From Brasilonema bromeliae SPC951 (lineage in GTDB: Bacteria > Cyanobacteriota > Cyanobacteriia > Cyanobacteriales > Nostocaceae), in contig NZ_QMEB01000001.1 of the NCBI RefSeq assembly GCF_012912135.1, positions 23,560-66,606 on the forward strand: DNA of 43,047 nucleotides, read 5' to 3'. Positions 15,278-39,811 of this stretch are shown one piece after another. The notes under the pieces were generated by a model that was not told the origin of the DNA, made no database searches, and saw nothing but the letters and a program-made list of their open reading frames with translations. The stretch's first letter is position 1; the number at the start of each line of letters is the position of its first letter. The position numbers were made by a program, and so were the translations under genes.

Positions 15278-15304
15278 TAAAAATTGCAATATTTTTTACC
15301 ACTT

Positions 15305-16630
15305 ATGCTTGACACTCAAGAATTACTCACTAACCTCTACAACGCCTTTAACCCATTTGAACCCTTACCCGCAGGTGATCCAAAGTACGTTGATTGTCAG
15401 GATGTACGCGGTGATGTGGATATTTTACAAGAGTTCGGAAATCGCATACAACGAGCAGATAGAAAGACTTGCCAATTGTACTCTGGACATCGGGGGGCGG
15501 GGAAGTCTACAGAACTACTGAGATTAAAGCAATATCTGGAAAATCGCAAATTCTATGTTGTTTATTTTGCGGCTGATGAAGAAGATATCGACTCAGAAGA
15601 TGCTCAATATACAGATATTCTCCTCGCTTGTACCCGCCGATTGCTCAAAGATTTACAGCAATTTGGTGATGCTAGTCCGGTGCTAAACTGGCTCAAAGAA
15701 CGCTGGCAAGAATTGAAAGATTTGGCGCAGACTCCGATAGAGTTTGAGAACTTGAAATTAGAAGCACAAATCGCTCAATTTGCCAAGCTAACAGCAAATT
15801 TAAGAGCCGTTCCCGAATTACGCCAGCAGATTCGCCGAAAAATCGATCCCCACACTGTCACCTTAATTAAGGTGTTGAATGAATTCCTGGCAGATGCAAA
15901 AAGCAAGCTACCAAACGGCTATACTCAACTGGCGGTGATTGTCGATAACTTAGACCGGATGGTATTAGTTAAAGATGGGGAAAATACGAACCATGAAGAA
16001 ATTTTTTTAGACCGCAGTGAACAACTCAAAGCTTTGGATTGCCATTTGATTTATACTGCCCCTATTTCCATGCTGTATTCTAAACGGGCAACAGACATCA
16101 GAGATATCTATGGTGAATGCTTAATTTTGCCGATGATTATGGTCAAAACTCACAAAGGAGAAGTTTATGAACCAGGACTCAAGAAAGTAAAAGAAGTGAT
16201 TCGTAAGCGAGTCCGGCAAATTGAACAAGAACTCCCGTTGGAAAACGGAATTTTTGATAGTCAGCAAACTTTAGAAAGATTGTGTTTGATGAGTGGAGGT
16301 CATGTCAGAAATTTGCTATTGTTAACTCAAAACGCTATTGGACGGACTGAAGAGTTACCAATTTCTGAAAAAGCAGTGCGACGAGCAATCACTCAAGCCA
16401 GAGATGACTATCATCGGGCTGTGGAAAATCATCAATGGTGTCTGCTAGCGGAAGTCTCCCGTTCTAAACGCATCGTTAATGATGACCAGTATCGCAGTTT
16501 GATGTATAACCGCTGTCTTTTAGAATATCGCTACTTGGATGATGATGGAGAAATGCAGCGTTGGTATGATATTCACCCATTGATTCAAGGAATCTCAGAA
16601 TTTAAAGAAGCTGTGGCGAAACTTCCATGA
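15305..16630 (+). CDS. P-loop ATPase paired with a TPR protein
   Basis: A 441-residue AAA/STAND-like ATPase. Near residue 60 it has the P-loop GHRGAGKSTELLRLKQYL, a Walker B candidate in LAVIVDNLDRM, and a later SGGHVRNLLLLTQNAI sensor-like helix. The frame is open from a TTG at 15284, but the ATG at 15305 (MLDTQELLTNLYNAFNPFEP) gives the natural start. The last four bases overlap the start of the TPR gene (ATGA at 16627), so the two are translated together and probably act together. Similar ATPase/TPR pairs are frequent in filamentous cyanobacteria. The role could be signalling or defence; nothing here decides. Confidence 0.75.
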   Translation: MLDTQELLTNLYNAFNPFEPLPAGDPKYVDCQDVRGDVDILQEFGNRIQRADRKTCQLYSGHRGAGKSTELLRLKQYLENRKFYVVYFAADEEDIDSEDAQYTDILLACTRRLLKDLQQFGDASPVLNWLKERWQELKDLAQTPIEFENLKLEAQIAQFAKLTANLRAVPELRQQIRRKIDPHTVTLIKVLNEFLADAKSKLPNGYTQLAVIVDNLDRMVLVKDGENTNHEEIFLDRSEQLKALDCHLIYTAPISMLYSKRATDIRDIYGECLILPMIMVKTHKGEVYEPGLKKVKEVIRKRVRQIEQELPLENGIFDSQQTLERLCLMSGGHVRNLLLLTQNAIGRTEELPISEKAVRRAITQARDDYHRAVENHQWCLLAEVSRSKRIVNDDQYRSLMYNRCLLEYRYLDDDGEMQRWYDIHPLIQGISEFKEAVAKLP

Positions 16631-18594
16631 ACCCAAATTTAAGTGATTGGGAAAGTGATTGGGATGATGATTTACCCCCCGAACCAGAAGAAGCTTATCA
16701 AGACTTAGTTCGCGCACTGAAGCGGAAATCAGGATTTGGCTTGTTTTTTGTGCAATGTACACCTGCCCAATCAGACCGTTTCATTGCCAAACTTCCGCAG
16801 GATATTCCCCAGAAAAAAATTGCAGCGTTGCGCTTAGTTGAACCGATTGATAACTTGTATCAGCCGGTAGCTGAGTTTGTTAAAAACAAGCAAGTTGATA
16901 TTTTATTGATTAAAGGGTTGGAATATTCTTTATATAAGTATGAGCAAAGAACTTTTGGCGAAATTACAGAGGGGCAATTTAGTAATTTAACTCGTGTTCC
17001 TCCAATTTTAAATCATTTAAACCAGCAGCGAGAAAGGTTTAGAGATGATTTTCCATTTTGCTTTGTTTTTCTATTGCGGTCATTTTCGATTAACTATTTG
17101 ATTCACCGCGCCCCAGATTTTTTTGATTGGCGTTCAGGGGTATTTGAATTACCAACAACACCAGAAGTGGTAGAACAAGAAACATCTCGTTTGCTGCTGG
17201 AAGGGGATTCTGAAAAATATTTTAAACTCAGCCTTGAAAAAAAGATAGAGAAAGTCCTTGAAATTCAAGACCTTCTAGCAGCAAAACATCAAACAGAGAA
17301 TAGTCAGGTAATTTTACTACTTGAACTTGGAAATTTATTAGTCGCTGCTAAGGAATATGAAGCAGCCATCACATCTTACAACCAAGCTGTGAAATGTCAA
17401 CTAGACTTACATGAGGCTTGGTACAACCGGGGGATTGCGCTGGATAATTTAGAACGATACGAAGAAGCAATAGCATCCTATGACCAAGCTGTGAAATTTC
17501 AACCAGACGACCACGAAGCTTGGAACAGCCGGGGCTATGCGCTGCGGAATTTAGAACAATACGAAGAAGCAATAGCATCTTACGACCAAGCACTGAAAAT
17601 TAAATCAGACTACCACGAAGCTTGGTACAATCGGGGCTATGCGCAAGGGAATTTAGAACGATACGAAGAAGCAATAGCATCTTACAAGCAAGCTGTGAAA
17701 TTTCAACCAGACTATCACGAAGCTTGGTACAGTCTTGCTACTGCGCTGGATGATTTAGGACGATACGAAGAAGCAATAGCATCTTACGATCAAGCACTGA
17801 AAATTAAACCAGACTACCATCAGGCTTGGTACAACCTTGTGACTGCGCTGTATGATTTAGGAAGATACGAAGAAGCGATGGCTGTTGACCGTCAAGTTTG
17901 GAACAACTGGGGTATTGCGCTGCGGGATATAGAATCCCACCAAGCAGCAATAGCATCTTATCAAGCTGTGAAAATTAAACCAGACTTACATGAGGCTTGG
18001 AACAATCGGGGTGTTGTGCTGGGGAATTTAGGACGCCACCAGGAAGCAATAGTATTCTACGACCAAGCTGTGAAAAGTAAACCAGATGATCACGAAGCTT
18101 GGAACAACCGGGGTTATGCGCTGCGGAATTTAGGACGGTACGCAGAAGCAATAGCATCTTATGACCAAGCACTGAAATTTAAACCAGATAAACATGAGGC
18201 TTGGAACAACCGAGGCATTGCCCTGCTGTCTTTGGGACGCAACGAAGAAGCAATAGCATCTTACGACCAAGCACTGAAATTTAAACCAGATAAACATGAA
18301 GCTTGGTACAACCGGGGGATTGCCCTGCGGCATTTAGGACGATACACCGAAGCGATCGCATCTTACGACCAAGCACTCAAAATTAAACCTGACAAACATG
18401 AGGCTTGGTACAACAAAGCTCGTTGTTATATCCTTCAAAGTAACATTGAACAAGCAATTGAAAACCTCGAAAAAGCAATTCATCTTAATCCTGATAAATG
18501 CCAGGATTGGGCAAAGAATGATTCCGATTTTGATAGTATTCGTGAAGATGAGCGCTTTTTGGTGTTGATTCAAGGACAGCAAACAGGCGATTAG
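16627..18594 (+). CDS. TPR-repeat protein, partner of the ATPase
   Basis: A 655-residue protein. Residues 1-210 form an acidic-tailed N-terminal domain (MNPNLSDWESDWDDDLPPEP) with a possible alpha/beta core (VDILLIKGLEYSLYKYEQRT) that I do not recognise. From ~235 to 640 there are about twelve tetratricopeptide repeats of 34 residues, consensus EAWYNRGIALxxLGRYEEAI then ASYDQALKxKPDxH. Repeats six and seven are shortened (EEAMAVDRQ, then a Val-Trp start and a one-residue loss), a sign of unequal recombination. It is translationally coupled to the upstream ATPase. The TPR array should be a protein-binding surface; the ligand is unknown. Confidence 0.8.
   Translation: MNPNLSDWESDWDDDLPPEPEEAYQDLVRALKRKSGFGLFFVQCTPAQSDRFIAKLPQDIPQKKIAALRLVEPIDNLYQPVAEFVKNKQVDILLIKGLEYSLYKYEQRTFGEITEGQFSNLTRVPPILNHLNQQRERFRDDFPFCFVFLLRSFSINYLIHRAPDFFDWRSGVFELPTTPEVVEQETSRLLLEGDSEKYFKLSLEKKIEKVLEIQDLLAAKHQTENSQVILLLELGNLLVAAKEYEAAITSYNQAVKCQLDLHEAWYNRGIALDNLERYEEAIASYDQAVKFQPDDHEAWNSRGYALRNLEQYEEAIASYDQALKIKSDYHEAWYNRGYAQGNLERYEEAIASYKQAVKFQPDYHEAWYSLATALDDLGRYEEAIASYDQALKIKPDYHQAWYNLVTALYDLGRYEEAMAVDRQVWNNWGIALRDIESHQAAIASYQAVKIKPDLHEAWNNRGVVLGNLGRHQEAIVFYDQAVKSKPDDHEAWNNRGYALRNLGRYAEAIASYDQALKFKPDKHEAWNNRGIALLSLGRNEEAIASYDQALKFKPDKHEAWYNRGIALRHLGRYTEAIASYDQALKIKPDKHEAWYNKARCYILQSNIEQAIENLEKAIHLNPDKCQDWAKNDSDFDSIREDERFLVLIQGQQTGD
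17340..18470 (+). repeat. 102-bp tandem repeats encoding TPR units
   Basis: The TPR units are also highly similar in DNA (recurring GAAGCAATAGCATCTTA and CACGAAGCTTGG). About eleven to twelve units of 102 bases are present, with one irregular junction at 17870-17960. Such near-identity points to recent expansion or gene conversion. Confidence 0.8.
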
Positions 18595-18800: not shown

Positions 18801-19214
18801 TTACAAAAATGGATTGATAATTCTTACCTTGTTTTCTACTAACTGATTGTGCTGCATATCTTCTGAGTAAATCATGGAACAGTCACTTAGTAAAGCTGTA
18901 GCTATGATAAGGCTATCCCAATAAGAGTAGTTATATTTTCCATTTATTTCCAAAGCTTTTAAAACTTGTGGTGTATCAATTGCCTGAACAGGAAAAGTGC
19001 TGATGAGATTTGAAATAATATTTATCGCGTCTATTTTGGAAGTAAAGTTTTTTCTGGTTAAAACATGGAAGAATTCACCTAAAACTTGAGTGCTCACTTG
19101 GATTAATGGCAAATCCTCCTTGATAATTCGCTCAATTTTCTGATATTTTTCTGGTGGATTTTTGGCATAAAGATAAATCCAGAGATTAGTATCCAGAAAA
19201 ATTTTATCTATCAT
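18801..19214 (-). CDS. vapC: PIN-domain toxin (VapC-type)
   Basis: A PIN-domain ribonuclease of 137 residues. The conserved acidic residues are in FLDTNLWIYLY (first Asp), GEFFHVL (Glu) and YWDSLIIATAL (Asp), with a final acidic residue in YSEDM. The frame is open 14 codons further, but MIDKIFLDTN from 19214 matches the usual start and overlaps the antitoxin stop by 11 bases, as in VapBC pairs. It should cleave RNA when freed from its antitoxin. Confidence 0.85.
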   Translation of the reverse strand: MIDKIFLDTNLWIYLYAKNPPEKYQKIERIIKEDLPLIQVSTQVLGEFFHVLTRKNFTSKIDAINIISNLISTFPVQAIDTPQVLKALEINGKYNYSYWDSLIIATALLSDCSMIYSEDMQHNQLVENKVRIINPFL

Positions 19215-19440
19215 AGATTTCTTCTCGATTGAATTTATAATCGGAAGGGATTTCAAAAGAATACTTATTAACTCGTGCTAAAAATTCCTGAATTTTGGTT
19301 TCCCTAGAATCTATTGTCTCACGAGACTCGCTTTGCTCAAAAATCATAATCTGTACGGTTTTACCTTCCAGTTCAGGATTTAGCTTTTCGCTAAGAACTA
19401 ATTCACCATTGGTGCAGGTTGCTTGCACAATTTTGACCAT
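19204..19440 (-). CDS. VapB/AF2212-like antitoxin
   Basis: A 78-residue protein beginning MVKIVQATCTNGELVLSEKL, the short beta-rich start (here xxATxxNGxLxLxExL) of DUF104/AF2212-like antitoxins. The C-terminal half is charged and probably wraps the toxin (FLARVNKYSFEIPSDYKFNR). It lies directly upstream of the PIN toxin and overlaps it, so antitoxin comes first in the operon. Confidence 0.75.
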   Translation of the reverse strand: MVKIVQATCTNGELVLSEKLNPELEGKTVQIMIFEQSESRETIDSRETKIQEFLARVNKYSFEIPSDYKFNREEIYDR

Positions 19441-19522: not shown

Positions 19523-20152
19523 CTAAATCCTTTCCCTCACCCAATTCCGAAAATTCCGCGTCATTCCCATCACTCCAATTCTTTGACTTTCCTCTAAAAA
19601 TTGTGGAATTTCAATTAAAGACAATTGTGCAAAAGTAGGCGAATTATTGCACTCGACATATTCCCCTTGTTGCAGTTGGTAAATGTGCAGCACACCTTCG
19701 TCATAACGCCAAAGTTCAGGAACACCTAAAGAAGCATAAATCTGGAATCGATCCAGAGATGAGCTGGTCAAATCTACTTCTACCACTAAGTCGGGTGGCG
19801 GATCGTTATTTAAATTAATTTCTGTTTTGTTTCTCACCCGTGCTTCATTGCGGATGTAGTAGCTGCTATCGGGTTCAGCACCACGCCGCAAATCTTCGCG
19901 TTTCAAGGTTGTGGAACCTGTAGGAAGAATTTCTAAATTCAACTCTTCCCCAAGAACAAAAATCAGACGTTCTATTAATCTATTCCAATATTCATGGGGC
20001 AAGAGTGGCGTCATAATTTCCAGCGTACCTCTGTCATAAGTCAGTCGGGAGGCTCGGTCTTCTCCCATTTCTGCTAGCATGGTTTCAAAGGTCTGCCAGC
20101 TAATGTTTCTTAAAACAACCCTTGATTCTGAGGGGATGCGTGTTGTTACCAT
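19523..20152 (-). CDS. Uma2-family PD-(D/E)XK protein
   Basis: A 209-residue Uma2 (DUF820) family protein, a restriction-endonuclease-like fold very abundant in cyanobacteria. Visible are LTYDRGTLEIMTPLLPHEYW, the acidic pair in GAEPDSSYYI, and PPDLVVEVDLTSSSLDRF, where the Asp and the Glu-Val-Asp form the PD-(D/E)XK-like site. The C-terminal GVPELWRYDEGVLHIYQL is also typical. The biological role of the family is unknown. It is a single gene. Confidence 0.85.
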   Translation of the reverse strand: MVTTRIPSESRVVLRNISWQTFETMLAEMGEDRASRLTYDRGTLEIMTPLLPHEYWNRLIERLIFVLGEELNLEILPTGSTTLKREDLRRGAEPDSSYYIRNEARVRNKTEINLNNDPPPDLVVEVDLTSSSLDRFQIYASLGVPELWRYDEGVLHIYQLQQGEYVECNNSPTFAQLSLIEIPQFLEESQRIGVMGMTRNFRNWVRERI

Positions 20153-37626: not shown

Positions 37627-37682
37627 CACTGTTCACTGTTCACTGTTCACTGTTCACTGTTCACTGTTCACTGTTCACTGTT
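37627..37682. repeat. Heptanucleotide tandem repeat (CACTGTT)x8
   Basis: Eight perfect 7-bp units between the kinase end and cpeZ. The last units contain the cpeZ stop codon (37677-37675), so the cpeZ terminus is set by the repeat. This is an STRR element. Confidence 0.95.
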
Positions 37683-39581: not shown

Positions 39582-39590
39582 GAGTTATTA

Positions 39591-39618
39591 GTTAACAGTT
39601 AACAGTTAACAGTTAACA
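39591..39618. repeat. Heptanucleotide tandem repeat (GTTAACA)x4
   Basis: Four perfect 7-bp units lie immediately upstream of the cpeY start, followed by repeated AGAATTCAGAATACAG (about 39636-39664) and CTGATAA units (39711-39737). These are STRR-type repeats inside the cpeBAYZ transcription unit. Confidence 0.9.
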
Positions 39619-39734
39619 GTTATCAATTTGAAGAAGAATTCAGAATACAGAATTCAGTATTCAGAAGGAAGAAAGAAAGAATTTAGTTTTCCGACTTCCG
39701 ACTCCTTCACTGATAACTGATGACTGATAACTGA

Positions 39735-39811
39735 TAAAAAAGATGAACCTGGGGATTCTCAAACCAATACTTAACCTTTCTGGGCAAAGCACTAGATTAA
39801 GAATCCCCAGG
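39735..39811 (-). terminator. Attenuating terminator between cpeA and cpeY
   Basis: Read leftward, CCTGGGGATTCT (39811-39800) pairs with AGAATCCCCAGG (39759-39748) in a perfect 12-bp stem across a 40-base loop. It is followed by TTCAT and a run of six T (39741-39736). In Fremyella, cpeBA is found mainly as a short transcript with rarer longer ones including cpeYZ; this hairpin would explain that here. Confidence 0.65.

Follow-up and report, generated by a model that had tools for sequence, protein, structure and literature searches.

What kind of system is encoded by an ATPase gene whose last four bases are also the first four of a gene for a protein of tetratricopeptide repeats (TPRs)? The question is raised by a stretch of 43,047 nucleotides from Brasilonema bromeliae SPC951 (contig NZ_QMEB01000001.1, positions 23,560 to 66,606), referred to below as the window, in which the two genes occupy positions 15305..16630 and 16627..18594, both on the + strand. 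A preliminary description made from the letters of the DNA took them for a sensor or defence module. We propose, with a probability of about one half, that the pair is a two-component STAND/NLR-like switch, present in filamentous cyanobacteria and in others with large genomes and consisting of an active ATPase and an ATP-dead adaptor that carries a variable sensor arm, and that its likeliest use is recognition of the conflict or immune type.

Pairing and exchange of partners

The two genes belong together. Wherever a complete ATPase of the family has at least 1 kb of sequence after it, which is so in 76 cases, a partner that has the same N-terminal domain follows, in 58 of them within 200 bases. 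The four-base overlap had already been seen in the window, as ATGA at 16627..16630 (+), and it recurs in every intact close orthologue; across the family, the −4 spacing is found in 30 of the 76 pairs. What comes after the N-terminal domain, which we call the docking domain for reasons given below, is modular. The arms are TPRs of two kinds (one of them TPR_12-type), nSTAND1 with WD40, DUF4062 with NACHT and FGE-sulfatase (in a Methylococcaceae bin), and TPR with HEAT.

Partners have been exchanged by recombination, and the breakpoint lies at the gene junction or close to it. When the window is compared with genome G002, the ATPase DNA is 93–99% identical (96–99% in its last part), and the figure drops to about 60% at the gene junction, from 16.7 kb onward. 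Across the same point, identity to other species of the genus drops from 97% to 72–79%, whereas identity to Scytonema climbs from 84% to 95%.

Several loci of the family have other architectures. At two of them (L051:10903-12893 and L123:1617-4134), a short docking-domain protein ends in a ribbon-helix-helix-like segment, and the next gene opens with a similar segment and continues with TPRs, which suggests that an arm can also be attached through a homotypic adaptor. There are also three-gene versions (L113:6246-9955 and L155:6183-9629, and likewise in G048 and G056), in which a docking domain with TPRs, the ATPase and a second short docking-domain protein are encoded. Some copies are broken (L062, L154 and L155). 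In the plasmid records L196, L197 and L198, RefSeq gives the long genes of the partner the name “ribosome assembly protein 4”, which looks like a misannotation.

A probable active ATPase and a Walker-less partner

The first gene encodes a protein of 441 aa, from the ATG at 15305 to the stop at 16628-16630; an in-frame TTG lies ahead of the ATG, at 15284. Its Walker A motif, GHRGAGKST (15485..15511, +), has G, H, G, G, K, S and T invariant in an alignment of 15 relatives, and GHxGxGKS is present in 83 of 88 family ATPases longer than 400 aa. In the same alignment, I212, D214, L216 and D217 of the Walker B region VIVDNLD (15932..15958, +) are invariant, as are a sensor-like T251 and residues S330, G331, G332 and R335 of the motif SGGHVR (16292..16309, +), to which a sensor-2-like function may be assigned by analogy to ORC and STAND proteins. 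Library models recognize little of this: AAA_16 is matched in Pfam at E=1e-4, under the curated cut-off, all other library matches are likewise below their cut-offs, and a sequence-profile search of solved structures gives P-loop-level matches only. The AlphaFold model (pLDDT 89) finds its best fold match in the Protein Data Bank in Cdc6/Orc1 (E=1e-7), followed by the archaeal AAA+ protein SSO1545, with the RADAR ATPase RdrA, TnsC and the wheat resistosome at lower ranks. With motifs invariant and a predicted fold that matches Cdc6/Orc1 and SSO1545, the first gene encodes an AAA+ ATPase of the ORC/STAND class, with a C-terminal winged-helix-like region.

The second gene encodes a protein of 655 aa with three parts, an N-terminal domain, a TPR array and a C-terminal cap. 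The N-terminal domain (16627..17298, +) had been described as some 210 residues of unfamiliar fold, and it does lie outside the known families: no NCBIfam or PADLOC model matches the first ~220 residues, the best 25 of 44 families in a Pfam scan of the whole partner all fall in the repeat region, and the sequence-profile search of solved structures gives no match to this domain. The structure prediction that the preliminary description had recommended gave an AlphaFold model (pLDDT 77, pTM 0.73) that is AAA+-like, and almost all of its top fifty Foldseek matches are AAA+ proteins (CbbX at 2e-4, ORC2 at 7e-4, Hda, ORC1-5); the TM-scores are only about 0.4. A Walker A motif is found in 0 of 92 N-terminal domains of the family. 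The domain is thus probably an ATP-dead, degenerate AAA+-like docking domain.

The repeat array and its turnover

That the rest of the partner consists of TPRs is beyond doubt (Pfam TPR_1, E=1e-99). The array (17314..18504, +) has 12 units of about 34 residues, a count in which a profile accounts for 10 and an irregular junction for two more, one of 24 and one of 33 residues, both placed partly by eye. TRF reports a 102-base periodicity at 17372-17876 and again at 17894-18414, with ~80% matches, and the single break between them coincides with the junction (17881..17898, +), where the truncated 24-residue unit is followed by the one of 33 residues. The one irregular junction noted earlier is therefore there; the units had also been called nearly identical in DNA, and this does not hold, since core units are 73–86% identical in pairwise comparison within the array. 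The array ends in a TPR end-of-group domain (18403..18573, +; NCBIfam NF047558, residues 593-649, E=4e-35), a cap that is 87–96% identical to those of orthologues, even where the inner units are non-homologous.

Is the array expanding, as had been thought? The scorable core units are 92–98% identical to their positional counterparts in Scytonema hyalinum (G011), with one at 86%, and the best pair within the array reaches 86%; the irregular junction is common to the window, G005 and S. hyalinum. Because its units match those of Scytonema better than they match each other and the junction is shared, the array of the window arose before the species did and is not undergoing expansion at present. 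The one-to-one orthology of units rules out present expansion at this locus.

For the family, the idea of a changing array fares better. The comparison of repeat number among relatives gave 4 to 20 units in orthologues with the same overlap, so the number is not constant. Against the same-genus genomes G003, G004 and G006, the first cap is 77–78% identical and the C-terminal cap 87–88% (G003 and G006; the G004 contig stops earlier), and the inner units have no positional match, all pairs being ~67–86% identical. From these unit counts and non-homologous inner units it follows that repeat number differs between species. Some relatives have far more uniform arrays, for example L059, with a mean DNA identity of 91%.

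The variation is also unevenly placed within the unit. At the seven positions that we take to be ligand-facing in a canonical TPR (2, 5, 9, 12, 13, 33 and 34), mean entropy is 2.21 bits versus 0.93 elsewhere (180 units, 23 genes), in a comparison made without unrelated TPR arrays as a control. Counted conservatively, as minimal codon steps, the changes at ligand-facing positions are 325 nonsynonymous and 93 synonymous, whereas the framework has 416 and 352 (Fisher p=4e-16). Since both entropy and step counts differ by position, diversification of the binding face is supported. Positive selection on the ligand-facing positions is weakly supported. A stronger claim of positive selection was considered and dropped: pairwise ratios of nonsynonymous to synonymous rates (dN/dS) exceed 1 in some arrays, and this overcounts shared changes, the conservative count being marginal.

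Distribution and genomic surroundings

Of 43 genomes sampled from the family to which the window belongs, 41 have strong matches to the ATPase, usually in several copies, and so do many other genomes of the order. The docking domain is found in 99 of 149 genomes of the order, with up to 13 matches per genome. Outside this group, the ATPase is present in 6 of 149 genomes of an Acidobacteriota sample and in the Methylococcaceae bin. Small-genome members of a different cyanobacterial family also match the ATPase profile (E 1e-3 to 1e-7); we discounted these matches as generic P-loop similarity.

The subfamily of orthologues to which the window's pair belongs has a narrower range. It is patchy, in 10 of 18 genomes of the family. 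The window is from a filamentous cyanobacterium, whose closest named relatives, judged at the level of the gene, are Brasilonema sp. CT11 and UFV-L1 and Scytonema hyalinum. The locus order is aroC, radical SAM, pair, hflX, an ordinary chromosomal position, where the outer neighbours, named from sequence without a library search, are putatively a chorismate synthase-like gene (aroC) and a gene for an HflX-type GTPase. In G006, the radical SAM and hflX genes enclose an empty site, and in the same-genus genome G001 a short remnant of the ATPase start is left. The G001 site (L202:7942-10128, −) also contains an insertion sequence and a gene whose product has a Z1 domain (PADLOC Helicase_II, 3e-90). 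Constant repeat number together with a housekeeping-like distribution, the combination that would speak against a sensor module, was not found, given the variable unit number, the 10 of 18 genomes, the one empty site and the one deletion remnant.

Relatives of the ATPase are also present in nine plasmid records, and one plasmid copy stands within a row of CHAT, NB-ARC, TIR, NB-ARC and TPR genes on a conjugative plasmid. On the Nostoc plasmid p057_J (L200:5259-9131), a distant homologue of the ATPase lies within a SAV_2336-type protein and adjoins a MoxR ATPase, an arrangement that loosely ties the ATPase family to the MoxR ternary systems discussed below.

How would the switch work?

We suggest the following sequence of events. 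The docking domain would be a non-hydrolysing subunit that docks on the ATPase to form a hetero-oligomer, and in the resting state this hetero-oligomer would leave the arm exposed. Binding of a ligand to the face of the TPRs would shift the grip of the docking domain; the ATPase could then exchange its nucleotide, and a signalling form would assemble. Most likely the ligand would be a foreign or altered protein; the exchange of ATP would set a threshold, and the outcome would be a response of the conflict or immune type. The ATPase and docking domain are the fixed part of the system and the arm is the part that varies: units are gained and lost, ligand-facing residues are substituted, and entire partners are exchanged. 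Direct observation covers the pairing, the lack of Walker A, the modularity, the exchange of partners, the turnover of units and the variable binding positions; the folds of both ATPase-like domains are predictions from models; and the complex, the ligand, a downstream effector and the immune role are what we infer.

The pair may plausibly act in conflict. Among its sister copies are some with STAND modules such as bacterial conflict systems have. The sensor half of the preliminary description is favoured by the obligate linkage, the modular and exchanged partner, the variable repeats with their ligand-facing variation and the STAND-bearing sister copies. The evidence for the defence half is indirect.

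A number of results weigh against our proposal and should be taken together. Neither protein has a recognizable effector domain in Pfam, NCBIfam or PADLOC scans, and PADLOC gives no match to a curated system, the ATPase matching PDC-S20 in part and at the AAA level (E=5e-6) and the partner matching generic TPR models. Among 50,697 phage records, no relative was found. It had been suggested that such pairs would lie near defence islands, and this expectation failed in the flanks of 20 paralogous pairs: in a matched comparison, only 1 of these 20 chromosomal regions had a conflict gene, and among 20 random regions 2 had one. The local models used for this were built on annotated CHAT, TIR, NB-ARC, NACHT, HicA and MoxR genes; they are few and may miss divergent effectors. 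A profile-profile comparison between the ATPase and the docking domain detects no homology, and the AAA+ reading of the latter depends on the model whose matches have the low TM-scores given above. As to the repeats, the concave, ligand-facing residues are variable in most TPR families; the least diverged arrays show 49 nonsynonymous to 4 synonymous steps against a neutral expectation of 83% nonsynonymous, a slight excess (p=0.044); and in the lineage of the window, one-to-one units are under purifying constraint, with dN/dS of 0.05–0.3.

Several of these points would also fit a cellular signalling or developmental regulator, that is, an ATP-driven switch of the MalT/SWACOS type whose arm senses an endogenous protein and which was duplicated and diversified as the large genomes of cyanobacteria expanded. 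The ordinary place between conserved genes, the multiple copies in nearly all sampled genomes of the family, the missing effector, the flanks poor in the tested conflict genes and the constraint on one-to-one units all agree with such a role. However, the subfamily is patchy and has been lost or replaced at its site, partners are exchanged by recombination, arrays turn over between sister species, and the docking domain is fused to NACHT with FGE-sulfatase and to nSTAND1 with WD40. We consider a regulator somewhat unlikely on balance, and it is the alternative to be taken most seriously.

The variable arm could instead serve self/non-self recognition of the kin or heterokaryon type and tell filaments or strains apart, rather than viruses. 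Fungal hetero-incompatibility STAND proteins have variable TPR or WD repeats, and some related systems of bacteria have been proposed to act in this way (PMC10907252); the large number of paralogues that filamentous cyanobacteria have in each genome would suit it. However, our data contain no direct evidence for it, and the presence of the family in Acidobacteriota and in the Methylococcaceae bin makes it improbable. Least probable of all is a domesticated or decaying remnant, in which slippage during recombination lets the array drift and the positions that vary are merely unconstrained; the generally relaxed concave residues, the weak excess over neutrality and the broken copies would fit it, but both genes are intact in most orthologues, the overlap and the caps are conserved, the one-to-one units are constrained and the Walker motifs are invariant.

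Returning to the two-component switch with an immune-type use, it is tempting to extend the proposal, and here we are more tentative. The pairs may constitute an undescribed family of two-component NLR-like receptors in bacteria, whose exchangeable receptor subunit has a gene of its own, separate from that of the ATPase switch. Through an AAA+ docking domain that lacks Walker A, one unchanging ATPase design could serve TPR, WD40, NACHT-FGE and HEAT arms, with exchange of cassettes at the gene junction and turnover of repeats under selection at the ligand contacts. If this is true, cyanobacterial genomes hold several receptors each, with switch and sensor on separate genes; partner specificity and sensor exchange would be directly testable in culturable filamentous strains; and a profile of the docking domain would find receptors that current libraries miss.

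Other features of the window

Besides the radical SAM gene, the neighbours of the pair include a PIN-domain gene and a Uma2 gene. The PIN-domain gene (18801-19256, −) comes directly after the pair and overlaps a small upstream open reading frame of antitoxin size (19204-19440, −); together they look like a VapBC-type pair (18801-19440, −). The Uma2 nuclease-like gene (19523-20152, −) matches the PADLOC candidate defence family PDC-S17 (E=1.8e-42). Away from the pair, TRF finds several arrays of 7-base tandem repeats, at 37627-37682 and 39583-39737, among them a perfect 8-copy CACTGTT.

Comparison with known systems

Which of the described systems does the pair resemble? The closest logic, by analogy, is that of the nSTAND2 two-gene operon, compared here by its description. 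It combines an active STAND NTPase with an inactive one, whose NTP-binding motifs are eroded and whose fusions vary, and the inactive module most commonly, though not universally, carries GT4 or HEPN effectors (Burroughs and Aravind group 2021, PMC8195603). The two-gene layout is alike, and holds in 76 of 76 cases here; an inactive STAND fold in the partner is only predicted. The arms are unlike, being TPR, WD40-nSTAND1, NACHT-FGE and HEAT in our pairs, and among the partner proteins scanned (the best 25 families for the repeat-rich ones) no GT4 or HEPN was found. Among the listed Pfam matches of the pair there is no nSTAND2 model.

In the iSTAND and iSTAND2 ternary systems, inactive STAND proteins require MoxR and vWA partners (PMC7159879, PMC8195603). 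An inactive STAND-like domain that partners an active ATPase, a prediction in the case of the pair, and multiple cyanobacterial copies with different arms are common to them and to the pair. However, the active ATPase of the pair is ORC/STAND-like, not MoxR; no MoxR or vWA gene adjoins the pair in the window, and the MoxR model has 0 matches in the 20 paralogue regions. The WRAP/Npun_R6612 STAND-WD40 operon of Nostoc joins a repeat-bearing STAND to a TIR-STAND (Dunin-Horkawicz 2014, cited in PMC9218822). It likewise has two coupled cyanobacterial ATPase genes and a repeat arm that is amplified and turned over, and it differs in that its second STAND has a TIR (and caspase) domain, whereas the pair is without an effector domain.

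Avs and other bacterial NLRs also have a STAND-type ATPase with a TPR sensor arm. An Avs, however, is one protein with an N-terminal effector, whereas the pair divides switch and sensor between two proteins, in which no effector was found. With the ORC/Cdc6 AAA+ ATPases, the pair shares the predicted ATPase fold, the winged-helix-like end and, probably, the mixing of active and inactive subunits. In sequence it shares motifs only, and it is a two-gene unit with repeat arms, for which a replication role is without evidence. We file the pair as a variant of the STAND/NLR-like two-component systems, distinct from nSTAND2, iSTAND and WRAP, and set apart from nSTAND2, its closest counterpart in logic, by description.

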